64,000 nt of DNA, from positions 496,001-560,000 of the forward strand of contig JAIOOU010000003.1 of assembly GCA_021414245.1 (NCBI GenBank), read 5' to 3'. Shown in pieces: positions 20,948 to 55,190 of the stretch. A program made the position numbers and the translations under genes. The DNA is from Chloroflexota bacterium. GTDB taxonomy: Bacteria; Chloroflexota; Anaerolineae; Anaerolineales; Villigracilaceae. The first letter of the stretch is position 1. Every line of letters begins with the position of its first letter. Under the pieces are notes generated by a model. The model ran no database searches. It saw only the letters and a program-made list of their open reading frames with translations, and was not told the origin of the DNA.

Positions 20948-21757
20948 ATGGATCCATTAAAACTTCTCGCAGTCTTTGCACATCCGGATGACGAATCAAT
21001 GGGCATGGGTGGCACCCTGGCAAAGTATGCCGCCGAAGGGGTGGAGACTCATCTGGTGTGCGCTTCACGCGGCGAACGGGGCTGGTTTGGCCCCGAAGAA
21101 CGGAATCCTGGCCTGAGTGCCCTTGGTCAGATCCGCACGAAGGAACTGGAAAATGCCGTCCGCGAGCTTGGCATGAAGGGGCTGTATTTCCTGAATTACA
21201 TCGATGGTGAAGTGGATCAGGCCGACCCTGTTGAGGCCATTGGCAGGATCGCCGCCCATATCCGCAGGATCACTCCCCAAGTCATGGTCACCTTTCCTCC
21301 TGACGGCAATTACGGTCATCCTGATCATATTGCCATCGGCCAATTCACCTCGGCTGCGATTGTCTGCGCCGCAGACTCAACCTACAGGGATCCTGAGAGC
21401 CTCCCCGCCCACCGTGTCTCAAAGTTATACTACATGGTGGATGGAGAGAACTTTATCAATCTGATCACACCTTTTATGGGCGATATGACCTTCCCAGTAG
21501 ATGACCAATTGCGCGGCGAGATCCCGTGGAAGGAATGGATGATCACCACTCGTATTGACATGGCTGCACACTGCGGCGCGGCCTGGAAGGCCATTCAATG
21601 CCATCAAAGCCAGCTGGCCACGCTGGGTGAGCTGGCCGAAATGCCCGAAGAGTCAGCCGCATCCGTGCTGGCCATGCAGGGGACCTTCTATCGTGTGTTC
21701 AGTCTGGTGAATGGGGGTAGAAAAATTGAGGTCGACTTTTTTGAAGGCTTAAGATAA
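20948..21757 (+). CDS. PIG-L/LmbE-family zinc deacetylase
   Basis: This 269-residue protein carries the zinc motif AHPDDESMGMGG near the N-terminus and the second motif HPDHIAIG near residue 120, typical of LmbE/PIG-L N-acetylglucosamine deacetylases, including MshB, BshB and mycothiol conjugate amidase. It removes an acetyl group or cleaves an amide on a GlcNAc-linked small molecule. Which low-molecular-weight thiol or glycolipid is involved cannot be decided here. The gene ends at a symmetrical terminator. Confidence 0.88.
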   Translation: MDPLKLLAVFAHPDDESMGMGGTLAKYAAEGVETHLVCASRGERGWFGPEERNPGLSALGQIRTKELENAVRELGMKGLYFLNYIDGEVDQADPVEAIGRIAAHIRRITPQVMVTFPPDGNYGHPDHIAIGQFTSAAIVCAADSTYRDPESLPAHRVSKLYYMVDGENFINLITPFMGDMTFPVDDQLRGEIPWKEWMITTRIDMAAHCGAAWKAIQCHQSQLATLGELAEMPEESAASVLAMQGTFYRVFSLVNGGRKIEVDFFEGLR

Positions 21758-21791
21758 AAAAATTGGGTTCCAATTGGAACCCAATTTTTTT
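21756..21791. terminator. Bidirectional terminator
   Basis: A7-TTGGGTTCC (21756-21771) pairs perfectly with GGAACCCAA-T7 (21776-21791) around an AATT loop. It ends the deacetylase and the convergent CpXC gene. Confidence 0.9.
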
Positions 21792-23145
21792 ATCCCATAT
21801 TTTTCTTCATGACCCGCCGCAAGGCGATTTTGTATATTTCGCCAAGCTTCCCGCTCATGGCTTTGGCCTCCGGGTTTTCATCCCCTTGGGCGTCGATCTG
21901 GGAGATCAACCCGCTCAGCGCGTCCACAAATTGCTGGTTGAGGATGGGGTCGTTTTCGTTGAGCATTTTTTCCACGGCGTCGTCCGGGGTTTGCAGCAGT
22001 TCCTCGATGAAAGCGATCTCCGGCGGGGGGGCGCTGGCCTCCTGCAATACCTGCACCATTTTCTGCAGTTTTCCCATGCGGGTATAGTCATTTTTTTCAG
22101 AGGCCTGTCTCAGCAGTTGGTTGACCACTTCGACAGAATCCTGCGTAAATCCCTCGATGTTGTCACGGGTGACTTTTTCCACATCCTCCTGCTCGAGGAT
22201 GGATTCAACGAATCCCTGGGCTTGTTTGAAGCGTGCTTCCAGCTGCTTGTCCACTTCATTGGTAAAACCCATTAATTTTTCGCGGATCGATTCGAGTCGG
22301 GCCTTTTCCTCTCCCGAGGCCTTGTCTATCTTCTCGGTCAGGTTCTGGAAGAAGACATAATCCATGCCGCCGCGCGCCAGGGAGACATAAGCGCGGATGC
22401 GGGCGTCATTTTTTGCTTCAAGGACGAAATCCAGCAGCAACTCGCGGGTAAGATTCTTCCCCGCATCCTGCAGGACCTTTGTGGCTGCTTCCACTTCCCC
22501 GACGGATTCCTTCAGCTCCCGGCCAAAGGCGGTCTCGTCCAGCAGTTGTTTCTGCAAATCGATGAGCGCTCTGGCGATGGGTTCCTGTCCGCCTGCCATG
22601 GCATTTTGTGCGATGCGGCTGAACAAGCCGAAGAATTGCTCGTCGATGATCTTCTCGTTCTGCTTGATCAGTTCCAGCCGGGCATCGGCCGAGGTGATTT
22701 GAAGCAGCTTCTCGACCAGCATGACCCGTTCCTGCTGGGACTTGATCATTTCCGATGTGATGCCGTCCTTGTTCAGGATGGTTTCCATCATGGATTCATA
22801 GGTAAAGTTGGCCTGGGGTTTGAATAAATATCCTTTGCGTTTTTCAGCCGGCAGTCTGTCCACGACCTGCTTGATCAACGGCCCGATCAGCCTTTCCTGC
22901 TCATTAATGGGCAGACCCAATTCCGGGGGGAAGAAGGTGAGCAGCAATTCCTTTTCGTTATCGTGGTAAACGATCGGGGTGGCAAGGCGGCCTTCGTATC
23001 CGCAGTTCGGACAGCGGGCATGGTTGGATTGTCCGCTTAACAAGCGCTGCTTGGAGGCGGGATCATGAGTGACATCGACCAGCTGTTCCACATTGGCAGC
23101 GATCATTTGTCTACAACGGGGACATGCGATTTGAGTTTGGGGCAT
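21790..23145 (-). CDS. CpXC-domain protein with long helical region
   Basis: This 451-residue protein starts with a zinc-ribbon CpXC domain (CPRC at 9-12, CPNC near 45-48, about 1-110). A long, charged, mainly helical region follows (about 130-440), with coiled-coil stretches and no membrane helix. CpXC domains occur widely in bacteria with no proven function. The helical part resembles nothing I can name. No clear Shine-Dalgarno is visible before the ATG. It lies 60 bases from the pepF stop on the same strand. Confidence 0.75.
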   Translation of the reverse strand: MPQTQIACPRCRQMIAANVEQLVDVTHDPASKQRLLSGQSNHARCPNCGYEGRLATPIVYHDNEKELLLTFFPPELGLPINEQERLIGPLIKQVVDRLPAEKRKGYLFKPQANFTYESMMETILNKDGITSEMIKSQQERVMLVEKLLQITSADARLELIKQNEKIIDEQFFGLFSRIAQNAMAGGQEPIARALIDLQKQLLDETAFGRELKESVGEVEAATKVLQDAGKNLTRELLLDFVLEAKNDARIRAYVSLARGGMDYVFFQNLTEKIDKASGEEKARLESIREKLMGFTNEVDKQLEARFKQAQGFVESILEQEDVEKVTRDNIEGFTQDSVEVVNQLLRQASEKNDYTRMGKLQKMVQVLQEASAPPPEIAFIEELLQTPDDAVEKMLNENDPILNQQFVDALSGLISQIDAQGDENPEAKAMSGKLGEIYKIALRRVMKKNMG

Positions 23146-47787: not shown

Positions 47788-48522
47788 TTAACCATTTCGC
47801 CACAGCGAAATCAACATTTTTACGCGGATCCTCGGCCGCGCGTCCGCGTTGGCAAGCGCCCACAGGGATTTGACCTGTTCGAAAACGTGATCCTCCATTT
47901 TTTCGAAATCCTCCCATTCCGAATCCATGAACTCCTTCATTTCCGAAGGCGTATCCCAGGAATAGAAGAAGGCGAACTCCTCCTCCCTTTCCTTGATGAA
48001 CCATCCGCGGGATTCGACTTCATGCATGGCATGGAAGGCCGCTTCGTCATCCGCCATGGCAACCGGCAGATCGGTCAACCTTCCCGCCACCTGATCCCCG
48101 GCCGATGAGGAGATTTCCACCGACCAGTTCGCTTCCACCGGCCTCAAGTCAATCAGGATCCCGCCCGGTTTGAGCACCCTTCGAATTTCATCCAGAGCAT
48201 GAACCATGCTCTCGTGCTCCATTCATCAGAGCGACCAGGCCAGGATCGCAATATCAAAGGTTTCCGCTGCAAAGGGAATGTTGGCTGCGCCGGCCTGGGC
48301 GAAGTGGACATGCTTTTGCAGGGCCACGGGCGAGTCGGCCCGGGCGATGCGTAATGCATCATGGTCGGGGTCAAAACCAACGGTCAGGGAGGATTCGCCG
48401 GCATATTTCCAGGTCAGCCGGCCTTCGCCGCATCCAATTTCCAGGACGTGCTTGTGTGCAAAGCCTGTGAATTTGTGCAGGATCTTTTTTTCGGTTTCCT
48501 CGGGGTCTCTTTGCAGGGTCAT
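47788..48522 (-). CDS. Class I SAM-dependent methyltransferase interrupted by tandem in-frame UGA UGA (possible selenoprotein)
   Basis: Read through, the frame is 244 codons. Motif I VLEIGCGEGRLTW lies near residue 29, FDPDHDALRIAR is motif II, FDIAILAWSL is motif IV, then TGA TGA (48228-48223), then MEHESMVHALDEI and RRVLKPGGILIDLRP, motifs V-VI. Both halves are in the same frame with no indel and together make one complete Rossmann methyltransferase; neither half is complete alone. A seven-bp hairpin with a GGUUC loop starts 10-13 bases after the UGAs, as in bacterial SECIS elements. The start overlaps the upstream stop (ATGA). Alternatives are a nonsense-mutated pseudogene or read-through. 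Confidence 0.6.
48194..48212 (-). promoter_or_regulatory. SECIS-like hairpin after UGA UGA
   Basis: On the reverse strand AGAGCAT (48212-48206) and ATGCTCT (48200-48194) form seven perfect pairs around the loop GGTTC (48205-48201). The loop begins 17 bases after the second UGA and 20 after the first. Bacterial SECIS elements put a small loop with G in its first two positions at about 16-37 bases from the UGA; the E. coli fdhF loop is GGUCU at about 18. Confidence 0.45.
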
Positions 48523-48929
48523 TTTGCAGTCGCCGCCTTGACGGAGGTCTTGATCAATTGTTTCAATACCGGGATGTTCACATCCTCCAGCTTCCTGATG
48601 TAAAGACAGCCGCCGCCCTTCTTGTGTTTGCCGAGTTTCGCGAGAAGGTCCGCGTATTGCTCCAGACTCCCCGGAATGTACAGGGTCAAGTTTTGTTTGC
48701 GGGGCGAAAAACCGATCACCATCCAATCCAGTTCCCGGCCGCTGGCATACTTGAGGCGCATGCTGCCGAACCCGACAATGTTCGCCCCCCACATTTTGGG
48801 CTCCTGTTTGGTGACCTGTTGAATTAACTTCACGATCTCGAAACTGTCCGCCCGCTTTTCCCCGCCTTCGACCCGGTTTAGAAACGTGGTCACACTGGCA
48901 TCGGTGAGTTTTGTTTTTAATTCAGCCAT
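48519..48929 (-). CDS. DUF1801-domain protein
   Basis: This 136-residue protein matches the DUF1801 (YdhG-like) fold: KMWGANIVGFGSMRLKY, DWMVIGFSPRKQNLTLYI, KHKKGGGCLYIRKLEDV. The family is small, cytoplasmic and without a proven function. GGAGAAAG precedes the ATG at 48929. Its stop overlaps the start of the methyltransferase, implying coupled translation. Confidence 0.82.
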   Translation of the reverse strand: MAELKTKLTDASVTTFLNRVEGGEKRADSFEIVKLIQQVTKQEPKMWGANIVGFGSMRLKYASGRELDWMVIGFSPRKQNLTLYIPGSLEQYADLLAKLGKHKKGGGCLYIRKLEDVNIPVLKQLIKTSVKAATAK

Positions 48930-49605: not shown

Positions 49606-49714
49606 GGGCCGTCTCCTGAAATGAGTTGATTAATTATAGCCTTGAAGGTGATTTTTGACCCGTGACTCGCGGCGCGTAATTCCGTATAGTAAAGGGGAAC
49701 CACGGGAGGTTTGC

Positions 49715-50605
49715 ATGAAATTGAACGGTCTTCACATCCTTCTGACGTATCAATGCACCCTGGAGTGCGATCATTGTTTTGTGTGGGGCAGTCCGCGCCA
49801 GACGGGCACTCTGACCCTGGCGCAGCTCGAAGAGATCCTCGGGCAGGCCAAAGAGGCGGGAGTCTCCTCCATTTATTTTGAGGGCGGTGAACCGTTTTTG
49901 TATTATGCCGTTTTGGTGAAGGCGGTCCATCTTGCGGCAGACATGGGCTTCTCGGTTGGCATTGTTTCCAACGCCTACTGGGCCAGTTCCGTGGCGGATG
50001 CCGTCGAGTGGCTGCGTCCTCTTGCGGGGCTCGTCGAAGATTTCACCGTCAGCAGTGACCTGTTCCATTGCGATGAATGCCTGGGAGAACGGCCGCAGAA
50101 TGCGCTGGTGGCCGCCAAATGGCTGGGCATCCCGACCGGCATGATCAGTATTGCGCAGCCTGAGCAGCAGGCCAGGCAAACGCACGGTCAGATCGAAGAG
50201 GAAGGCGCGGTCATGTACCGCGGCCGGGCGGCGAAAATGCTTGTTGGAAAAGCAGCCAGCCATCCCTGGCAGGGATTCGATTCCTGTCCGCATGAAGACC
50301 TGCGCGAACCCGGGCGTGCCCATCTGGACCCGTTGGGGAATGTCCAGATCTGTCAGGGGATTTCGATCGGTAATGTGTTTGAAAAACATCTCAAGACGAT
50401 CTGTGACGAATACGAACCGGATTCCCATCCGATCTGCGGACTTCTGCTCGAAGGCGGACCGGCTGCACTGGTGGCGGAGTATCGCCTTCCGCACGCTTCG
50501 CACTACGCCGACGCCTGCCACCTGTGTGATCAGGCCCGTTCGTCGCTCCGGGAAAGTTTTCCCGAGATTCTTAATCCCGATCAAATGTATGGAGTTGTGA
50601 AATGA
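49715..50605 (+). CDS. Radical SAM protein
   Basis: This 296-residue protein has CTLECDHC (Cys14, Cys18, Cys21), the CxxxCxxC motif for the SAM-bound 4Fe-4S cluster, then YFEGGEPFLYY. More Cys residues follow in SCPHEDL, NVQICQGISIGN, ICGLL and CHLCDQAR, the pattern of a SPASM-like auxiliary cluster region. Such proteins often modify peptides or act as anaerobic maturases, but no precursor peptide is seen nearby. GGGAGG precedes the ATG. It overlaps the next gene by four bases, so a functional link with a deazaflavin-type reductase is likely. Confidence 0.85.
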   Translation: MKLNGLHILLTYQCTLECDHCFVWGSPRQTGTLTLAQLEEILGQAKEAGVSSIYFEGGEPFLYYAVLVKAVHLAADMGFSVGIVSNAYWASSVADAVEWLRPLAGLVEDFTVSSDLFHCDECLGERPQNALVAAKWLGIPTGMISIAQPEQQARQTHGQIEEEGAVMYRGRAAKMLVGKAASHPWQGFDSCPHEDLREPGRAHLDPLGNVQICQGISIGNVFEKHLKTICDEYEPDSHPICGLLLEGGPAALVAEYRLPHASHYADACHLCDQARSSLRESFPEILNPDQMYGVVK

Positions 50606-53144: not shown

Positions 53145-53183
53145 TTAGACAGGCTTTGTGTGATTTGGAAACGAGGAGGAAAA

Positions 53184-55190
53184 ATGAAAAAATCCAGTGG
53201 ACCTTTGAACGGTGTCCTGCTGCTGGCCCTGATTCTGACATCCTGTGGATTGCCGGGGTATTCCACGCAATTGCCGCCATCATCCCCGCCTGCCGTCGTG
53301 GAGACCAGCCCGCCTGTTCCTGACACGGTTGCGAAGGAGGCCCTGCAGGTTGTCAATATTGACCTGCAAAAGCCTGTAGTGGGCACCACCATGCAATGGA
53401 TGGATGGAAGCATCCTTGTTTATGTGCCTGAAGGAAGTTTCCAGATGGGGGCGGACCAGATCGACAATCCCGAACATACAGTCAACCTGTCTTCCTATTG
53501 GATTTACCAAACCAAGGTCACCAATCGCATGTATGGGCTATGCGTCAAGCTTGGCATCTGCAGCCTGCCGTTGACCAGTCAGGCGCAGGCCGATCTTGAG
53601 AATCATTATCTGCTGGATCGCCCGGTCGTGGATGTGGATTGGGAACAGGCGCAGAATTATTGCACTTGGGTCCACGGACAATTGCCGACCGAAGCGCAAT
53701 GGGAAAAATCCGCGCGCGGACCGGATGGAAACGTGTATCCGTGGGGGCAGGCGGATCCGGTCTGCGACCTGCTTAATTTTAACAAATGCCTCGGGAAGAC
53801 ATCCCGGGTTTTCGATTACATCAACGGCAAATCCTATTACAGCGCCTATGATCTGGCCGGGAACACCTTCGAATGGGTGAATGACTGGTACGATCCGGAT
53901 TATTACCCCAACGGGCCGGACGACAATCCGCCCGGTCCACAAACCGGCACGCGGCGGGCGGTGCGTGGCAGCAGCTTCCTGAGTAATAAAGACCAGATCC
54001 CTGTTTCTTTAAGATCCTTCAGCGCACCGGATCAATATCGGCCGGATCTGGGTTTTCGCTGTGTGGTGGAGCAGCCGCATGTCTTTGCACCTTATTGTGT
54101 ATCGAATAACTTTGTGCCCGGCGACGCGAATGTGCCGCCTCCTTCCAGAAGCTGTGACGTCAGCGAACATGAAGTCGGGCGGTCGTGCGGACTGGTCAAT
54201 CATGATATAGAGGGCGCCGGTGAATTGAGGGGTGTGACTGGCCGCCCGCCATTGACGGGCTGTGTGATCGCCGGTGCGCCAAACCGGATCTCGTGTTCGG
54301 GGCCTGCCAGCACCACCGGACTGGTGACGGTTGCGGTGGTGTGCGGAACCATCAACCCCGGAGATCGGCCTGCCGATCCGACCTGCATGGAAGGCTACGT
54401 TCCTGCTCCGGGAAGTGAGACCAGTTGTGCGATCGTTCCGGGATCTTCCCCCAGTGGACCGGGCGGCTGCCCGGCCGGAATGGTGCCCAGCCCCGGACCA
54501 GGCGGCTTGACTTTTTGCGTCGGCAGGACCAGTGGCGGTGAGGGTGAGTTGGAGGTCGTGGAGGAGATTGGAACTGCCGTGCCCACCGATCCGGCTGAAG
54601 CGGAAGCGCGTGCCCTGGGATGTTTGCCCGGGATGACCGCGGAGACCGCGCCGGATGGAAGCACGATTTGCACAGCCACGGCACCGGATGGAAGGAGTGT
54701 CTTGTGCCCGGCACATACCATCCCCATGCTCACCACGGATGGAAGTTTTGTTTGTGTGGGAAGAGGCGCGCCGGGAGAACCCTGTCCGCCCGGAACCTAT
54801 TCAACCCCCTTTGCAGGAGGCAGCGTGTGCATGGGTCCGGCAGGCGAGACTTTGCCCGATGGCGAACTGACCAACCCCTGTCTTGAGGGCTTCACCTTTG
54901 ACTCTGCCTTGGGCTGCTGCCAGTCACCCGGGGGAGCGTATCCGGGTTGTGCCGAGGGTGAATATTATGATACCGTGCACGGCTGCCAGCCGCGCCCTGA
55001 AGCCTCGGGCGCCATCGTAACCGCGTTGAGCTTTAATGCGACCACCGGTTCATGCGGTGGAGACCTGCCTGGCGGCGGACCCGATGGCGGACCTGACTGC
55101 GGGGCGATTGAGTCGAGCGCTACCTGCGATACCACGCCCGGCTGTCATTTTGATTATGACCCGGGAGTCAAAGCCTGTGTCCCTGATTAA
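53184..55190 (+). CDS. Lipoprotein with FGE/SUMF1-fold domain and Cys-rich tail
   Basis: This 668-residue protein has a signal peptide with lipobox ILTSC (Cys21), a short linker, an FGE-sulfatase-type domain (about 72-300: FQMGADQIDNPEH, TKVTNRMYG, LPTEAQWEKSARG, YPWGQ, DLAGNTFEWVNDWYDP, GFRCVVE) and a long Cys-, Gly- and Pro-rich C-terminal part (about 310-668). In true formylglycine-generating enzymes the RGGSW loop is followed by two active-site Cys; here RGSSFLSNKD has none. It is therefore probably a binding or structural protein using the fold. The tail has many short CPPG or CLPG-type turns and could be disulfide-bonded. Confidence 0.82.
   Translation: MKKSSGPLNGVLLLALILTSCGLPGYSTQLPPSSPPAVVETSPPVPDTVAKEALQVVNIDLQKPVVGTTMQWMDGSILVYVPEGSFQMGADQIDNPEHTVNLSSYWIYQTKVTNRMYGLCVKLGICSLPLTSQAQADLENHYLLDRPVVDVDWEQAQNYCTWVHGQLPTEAQWEKSARGPDGNVYPWGQADPVCDLLNFNKCLGKTSRVFDYINGKSYYSAYDLAGNTFEWVNDWYDPDYYPNGPDDNPPGPQTGTRRAVRGSSFLSNKDQIPVSLRSFSAPDQYRPDLGFRCVVEQPHVFAPYCVSNNFVPGDANVPPPSRSCDVSEHEVGRSCGLVNHDIEGAGELRGVTGRPPLTGCVIAGAPNRISCSGPASTTGLVTVAVVCGTINPGDRPADPTCMEGYVPAPGSETSCAIVPGSSPSGPGGCPAGMVPSPGPGGLTFCVGRTSGGEGELEVVEEIGTAVPTDPAEAEARALGCLPGMTAETAPDGSTICTATAPDGRSVLCPAHTIPMLTTDGSFVCVGRGAPGEPCPPGTYSTPFAGGSVCMGPAGETLPDGELTNPCLEGFTFDSALGCCQSPGGAYPGCAEGEYYDTVHGCQPRPEASGAIVTALSFNATTGSCGGDLPGGGPDGGPDCGAIESSATCDTTPGCHFDYDPGVKACVPD

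Follow-up and report, generated by a model that had tools for sequence, protein, structure and literature searches.

Insertion of selenocysteine (Sec) at a single UGA already competes with termination, and double recoding at adjacent codons should be inefficient. In the methyltransferase ArsM, three or four conserved cysteines bind As(III). Selenoproteins that are SAM-dependent methyltransferases appear in Table 1 of PMC13188914 (2026), which is said to comprise 119 selenoprotein families or subfamilies. They include the methyltransferase domain-containing double selenoprotein MduS (NF045649) as well as ArsM and its fusions (NF041536, NF041537), which are named for a metalloid; the arsenite methyltransferase selenoproteins are given the motif UxxG, plus CxxU in one fusion. 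Adjacent pairs are found in the same table as CU or UC inside longer motifs. A vicinal Cys-Sec (CU) pair is assigned to SaoL, SaoC, MbdU, HgcA and KCU-star/DUF466, and some of these CU selenoproteins are linked to metals or organomercury through their names or the accompanying text. For the L gene of Ebola virus, two tandem UGA codons within a frameshift region have been proposed (PMC11510084).

The window analyzed here, a stretch of 64,000 nucleotides from a Chloroflexota genome, contains a gene for a SAM-dependent methyltransferase at 47788-48522 on the minus strand. Its translated frame comprises 245 codons, from an ATG start to a final TAA (47790-47788), and is free of stops except for TGA codons at 48228-48226 and 48225-48223. 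Read through both UGAs, it yields 244 residues, and the pair (48223-48228, minus strand) is read as Sec99-Sec100 on the basis of the codons in 85 distinct homologues. An earlier note on this DNA had described the frame as broken only by the TGA pair, the start as translationally coupled, and UGA as an ordinary stop for other genes, and translation and inspection of the neighboring ORF bore out the first two statements and, for the gene directly upstream, the third. The start codon overlaps the TGA stop of a DUF1801 ORF (48519-48929, minus strand) in the sequence ATGA, and because this TGA terminates the directly upstream ORF, UGA acts there as an ordinary stop. With the TGAs read as Cys, the protein matched the Pfam domains Methyltransf_25 (PF13649; 66.6 bits, cut-off 27) and Methyltransf_11 (PF08241; 66.1 bits, cut-off 21.2), with others also above cut-off, and the methyltransferase matches run across the TGA pair. 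The matched domain contains motif I (EIGCGEGR, 48418-48441, minus strand), the SAM-binding loop of the methyltransferase fold, which was assigned from Pfam and from the glycines G30, G32 and G34, and which places the protein in the class I SAM-dependent methyltransferases. From the sequence evidence presented below, we predict that the gene very likely encodes a functional methyltransferase in which both UGAs are decoded as Sec, a judgement that leaves the substrate aside.

Bacterial selenoproteins are recognized by in-frame UGAs that align with Cys in homologues and by the presence of selA, selB, selC and selD in the genome. A first scan of genome contigs was performed with six peptides, one of which (CCMEHESM) spans the site as Cys-Cys, while the five others lie outside it. 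It returned 10 relatives, from records labeled Anaerolineales, Anaerolineaceae, Anaerolineae, Chloroflexi, Villigracilaceae or Brevefilum; the site was TGA TGA in 7/10, TGA with a Cys codon in 2/10, and Cys-Cys in 1/10. With read-through profile searches, family members were detected in 46 of the 396 genomes examined from the window's class (48 matches, all carrying one or two TGAs in frame). A draw of 400 genomes from the phylum, which overlaps with the first, contained them in 46 (52 matches, of which 51 had one or two TGAs). A match without TGA (L146 in genome G635, 75.6 bits) is missing the site; it represents a different methyltransferase and was excluded. After copies identical around the site had been dropped, the set contained 85 distinct homologues, all from the same phylum, Chloroflexota.

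The two site positions were occupied by Sec-Sec (UU) in 63 homologues, Sec-Cys (UC) in 19, Cys-Sec (CU) in two and Cys-Cys (CC) in one, such that Sec was present at position 1 in 82/85 and at position 2 in 65/85. All in-frame TGAs (147/147) fell into these two columns; the matched stretches, 19,527 codons in total, contain no others. Because TGA TGA recurs at the same place in 63/85 homologues, and one TGA with a Cys codon in 21/85, neither chance nor sequencing error accounts for the pair. When Sec was equated with Cys, the columns identical in 85/85 were both site columns, the three motif I glycines and Leu110. Cys or Sec was found at columns 99 and 100 in all 85 and at the motif I residue Cys31 in 73/85, and at no other column did Cys occur in 15 or more rows. 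The proposal that the UGAs may encode Sec where homologues carry Cys was thus confirmed at exactly these positions, and residues unrelated to Cys or Sec, which had been named as a refuting outcome, were not seen at the site among the 85.

Some genomes carry the family twice. In one case, two UC copies are separated by about 5 kb (L061; G148:C16:16713-17444 and 21603-22334), and two family matches each were also present in genomes G372, G477, G582 and G720. A scan of viral contigs with the family alignment gave 6 loci with 24-44% identity, and tblastn matched 58 plasmid records, none of which reached 60% identity. In the sole viral match to the hairpin pattern (L154), the second codon is TGG, and similarity to the family is absent.

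The machinery for Sec insertion was found in the window's genome, where its absence had been proposed as a refutation. All four components scored above their cut-offs: selA with 549.4 bits (cut-off 267.9), selB with 325.6 bits (242.25), selD with 350 bits (125), and the selC product tRNA-Sec, with the anticodon TCA (UCA), with 66.4 bits (47). The selD gene (L028 1501-2433, minus strand) contains one in-frame TGA in a UxxK context, and SelD itself is therefore a predicted selenoprotein. Within the class, selA was detected (E <= 1e-20) in 45 of the 46 genomes with the methyltransferase gene versus 275 of the 350 genomes without it (Fisher p 5.6e-4, uncorrected for kinship). Genome G335, which is 90% complete, has the methyltransferase gene and a tRNA-Sec, and selA was not found in it. 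A tRNA-Sec above the gathering score was present in 17/17 chosen genomes (57.8-76.1 bits), including G335 and the genome with the Cys-Cys homologue. Because the model also passed the gathering score in 5/14 control genomes, and matched at second places in some genomes, tRNA-Sec was taken as supporting evidence only.

A bacterial SECIS-type hairpin, AGAGCAUG-GUU-CAUGCUCU, is located at 48194-48212 on the minus strand, as judged from folding, covariation and the bSECIS constraints quoted in PMC13188914. It consists of 8 base pairs and a GUU loop of 3 nt, and, counted on the sequence, the apical loop lies 21 nt past the first UGA and 18 nt past the second. The hairpin fits the constraints, as far as that paper quotes them, for both UGAs at once. 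The 45-nt region of the window folds with -13.1 kcal/mol, and 0/200 shuffles were as good; in this comparison, which covered four sequences, the values for two relatives (L078 and L018) were 5/200 and 10/200. A pattern that combined the site and the hairpin occurred once in the window's genome, and the reversed-pattern control yielded 0.

In 55 aligned sequences, 95.5% of the cells of the 8 pairs were paired, versus at most 55.9% in slid controls. The covariation score of these 55 rows was higher than in 500/500 shuffles, which do not preserve relatedness, and double changes were observed in three pairs; 1/500 shuffles reached the observed number of pairs with double changes, and 45/500 reached that of further pair types. 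The key pair 49/63 was G-C in 31 rows, A-U in 24, and broken in none of the 55. In 54/55 rows it links the first base of a Ser/Gly codon to the synonymous third base of an Ala codon, AGY occurring with GCU and GGY with GCC, and the one remaining row has GCC (Ala) with GGC (Gly). An RNA structure is favored, because it is hard to explain otherwise why a synonymous base should track a replacement base. Pairs 47/65 and 54/58 were open in 16/55 and 4/55 rows, respectively. In the wider set, the key pair was formed in 83/84 Sec-bearing sequences and broken in one (AGC with GCC), at least 6 of the 8 pairs were formed in 84/84, and the 3-nt loop was GUC, GUU or GUG in 83/84. The MVHAL peptide encoded under the hairpin is variable, with SVGDTL (L119), SVVDAL (L121) and GVVNAL (L118) as examples. 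This covarying, bSECIS-like element below the UGAs adds to the case for the Sec reading that the earlier note had offered.

Both sides of the UGAs are under purifying selection in the pairs computed. For the window gene compared with 8 relatives, dN/dS was below 0.25 on both sides wherever it was defined; 5/16 values were undefined, and the gap-free procedure evidently misaligned L035 in the upstream comparison. On the tree of the 85 homologues, which has long branches (L050, for example, is joined with L056), at least 15 changes among UU, UC, CU and CC are required. The UU label changed at least 13 times, at least 11 of them on well-supported branches, and therefore single-Cys forms are easily reached. 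The sole Cys-Cys row, L017, groups with a UC row (support 95/94). It forms 4 of the 8 hairpin pairs, and 143/200 shuffles fold as well. Both the hairpin and the MVHAL peptide are missing, although the genome retains selA and tRNA-Sec. This would fit a stepwise loss of Sec, first at one position and then at the other, followed by decay of the hairpin, an order that we infer.

With Cys in place of Sec, AlphaFold2 predicted a methyltransferase fold (mean pLDDT 94.4, pTM 0.89), and 999 of the top 1000 Foldseek chains aligned at Z >= 8. Because many small-molecule methyltransferases matched about equally, the nearest including ordinary O-, N- and S-acceptor enzymes, the substrate cannot be read from the fold. 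The Sec-Sec pair is aligned with the Cys-His of SLCH in TleD, which was the best match by sequence. The loop after motif IV that carries the pair presumably faces the acceptor, as expected for this fold. Alignment, predicted fold and this knowledge together suggest that the Sec pair is situated beside the predicted meeting place of the SAM methyl group and the acceptor.

The gene neighborhoods did not name a substrate either. Relatives of the DUF1801 ORF were present near the gene in 14/80 loci, a count that includes the window and several loci from one genome. By eye, a upp-like ORF was recognized in 15/80 loci and an amidase-like ORF in 8/80, and no neighbor recurred in more than 15/80. Among the ORFs of 22 loci, no metal, metal-resistance or arsenic gene stood out by eye, and a redox partner gene recurring beside the methyltransferase was not found in the loci looked at. 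The window also encodes a radical SAM protein (49655-50605, plus strand) that belongs to no named family, because its best NCBIfam match, rSAM_yydG, gave 48.3 of 300 bits; in 5 other loci, ORFs that resemble it on visual inspection are found close to the methyltransferase. Further along the window (53160-55190, plus strand), an ORF was seen by eye to combine a lipoprotein-like start, a formylglycine-generating-enzyme-like domain and a long Cys-, Gly- and Pro-rich tail. At locus L093, the gene is near a homologue (337.4 bits, cut-off 220) of YqeB, which belongs to selenium-dependent molybdenum cofactor synthesis, and at L094 a BLAST relative of that yqeB-type gene is found beside an XdhC-like gene that is below both XdhC cut-offs. 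The two loci (genomes G057 and G129) make a link of the methyltransferase to selenium handling possible in one family of genomes.

Predicted Sec-Sec decoding was weighed against four other readings of the UGA pair. Two in-frame stops within an otherwise intact frame are what a decaying pseudogene with two nonsense changes would show. The earlier note had regarded adjacent nonsense changes as an unlikely form of decay, and we agree: TGA is present at one or both of the same columns in 84/85 homologues and nowhere else, and the downstream part is under purifying selection and contains the covarying hairpin, which together leave a pseudogene a vanishingly small probability. It is also highly improbable that two genes are present, with translation ending at UGA UGA and resuming at the next ATG. 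The codon after the pair is indeed ATG in the window, and the part beyond the pair is listed as a separate ORF (47788-48222), but that codon is ATG in 21/85 homologues, GTG in 8/85 and mostly ATC or ATT in the other 56; moreover, the methyltransferase matches in Pfam extend across the pair, and the Cys-Cys homologue has a single frame free of stops. A reassigned or suppressed UGA, for example read as Trp, has nothing in its favor except the open frame, and can be dismissed almost entirely, given that UGA ends the directly upstream ORF, that the TGAs are confined to columns where relatives have Cys, and that tRNA-Sec and the sel genes are present. All three readings were therefore rejected on the strength of the conserved TGA columns, the hairpin, the spanning domains and the upstream UGA stop. 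The fourth reading is that only one UGA is decoded as Sec while the second is decoded poorly or as a different residue, with mostly one-Sec or truncated product. The natural UC and CU variants suggest that one Sec suffices, and adjacent double recoding is generally expected to be inefficient; nevertheless, both TGAs have been kept in 63/85 homologues although single-Cys forms are easily reached, and both UGAs lie within reach of the hairpin, which makes this reading very unlikely.

For the favored Sec-Sec decoding, the hairpin and its spacing are observed features, and one SECIS can serve both UGAs because the spacing to each is permitted. SelB and Sec-tRNA-Sec, held by this single downstream hairpin, would insert Sec at each UGA, with SelB presumably binding it and being reused. 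The first selenolate would probably act as the main ligand or nucleophile, with the second as a partner, because Sec is nearly obligatory at position 1, while position 2 accepts Sec or Cys. As neither the neighborhoods nor the fold name a substrate, the acceptor was inferred from chemistry alone. Our leading but tentative guess is that the Se/S pair holds a soft acceptor, for instance a metal(loid) or thiol/selenol. If Sec-Sec is real, the pair might instead act mainly as a redox sensor or switch, in which a reversible Se-Se or Se-S bond gates methylation of an ordinary O, N or C acceptor. A vicinal pair with Sec/Cys interchange would resemble redox dyads, and ordinary O-, N- and S-acceptor enzymes are among the nearest fold matches, yet the loci looked at lack a recurrent redox partner gene and the pair probably lies in the expected acceptor pocket; a switch is rather unlikely, though close behind the leading guess. 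A covalent methyl- or substrate-selenium intermediate appears improbable. As an overall reading, it is moderately likely that these Chloroflexota-wide methyltransferases use an active-site Sec-Sec, decoded from one SECIS, with the selenolates holding a soft metal(loid) or chalcogen acceptor or forming an Se-Se switch.

Selection has preserved two back-to-back UGAs even though a single base change would yield a single-Cys form, and this implies that SelB can serve adjacent codons from one hairpin and that a neighboring selenolate pair offers something that Sec-Cys does not. The UU, UC, CU and CC forms within one fold constitute a natural series for vicinal selenol chemistry. The proteins would add a selenoprotein family whose gene standard gene calling would split in two. 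Should the soft metal(loid)/chalcogen acceptor or the Se-Se switch prove true, it would represent a chemistry for which no described enzyme was found in the literature searched.

The adjacent Sec-Sec arrangement is absent from the selenoprotein lists consulted. Table 1 of PMC13188914 contains no UU motif, and some of its two-Sec rows give one motif or none, so that an adjacent pair is conceivable there. No bacterial Sec-Sec protein was recognized in the part of the literature that was searched, and an earlier description elsewhere is possible. The CU selenoproteins share the adjacent pair with the window family, but are other families by their entries in that table, and UU is listed for none of them. 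MduS is likewise a methyltransferase with two Sec, according to the table, but it has the motif CxxU instead of UU and a profile of 338 positions compared with the 244 residues here, and it matched residues 6-124 of the window protein with 42.5 bits versus a cut-off of 380. ArsM and its fusions are likewise SAM methyltransferases with Sec in the table; NF041536 and NF041537 gave 28.7 of 575 and 30.0 of 510 bits. Pfam assigned general methyltransferase domains only, and the best 25 of the 36 matched NCBIfam models were all below cut-off. The best of them was CpaM (NF043040), a corrinoid protein-associated methyltransferase, which shares the methyltransferase core (63.3 bits, cut-off 180), but the description of which names no Sec. 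TleD, RebM, AtmM and SpnF (PDB 5gm1, 3bus, 6uv6 and 4pne) have the same fold, with about 18-23% identity in structural alignments, and to our knowledge these and similar methyltransferases contain no Sec. The closest of them in sequence illustrates the difference directly, as TleD has SLCH where the window family has SL-Sec-Sec.
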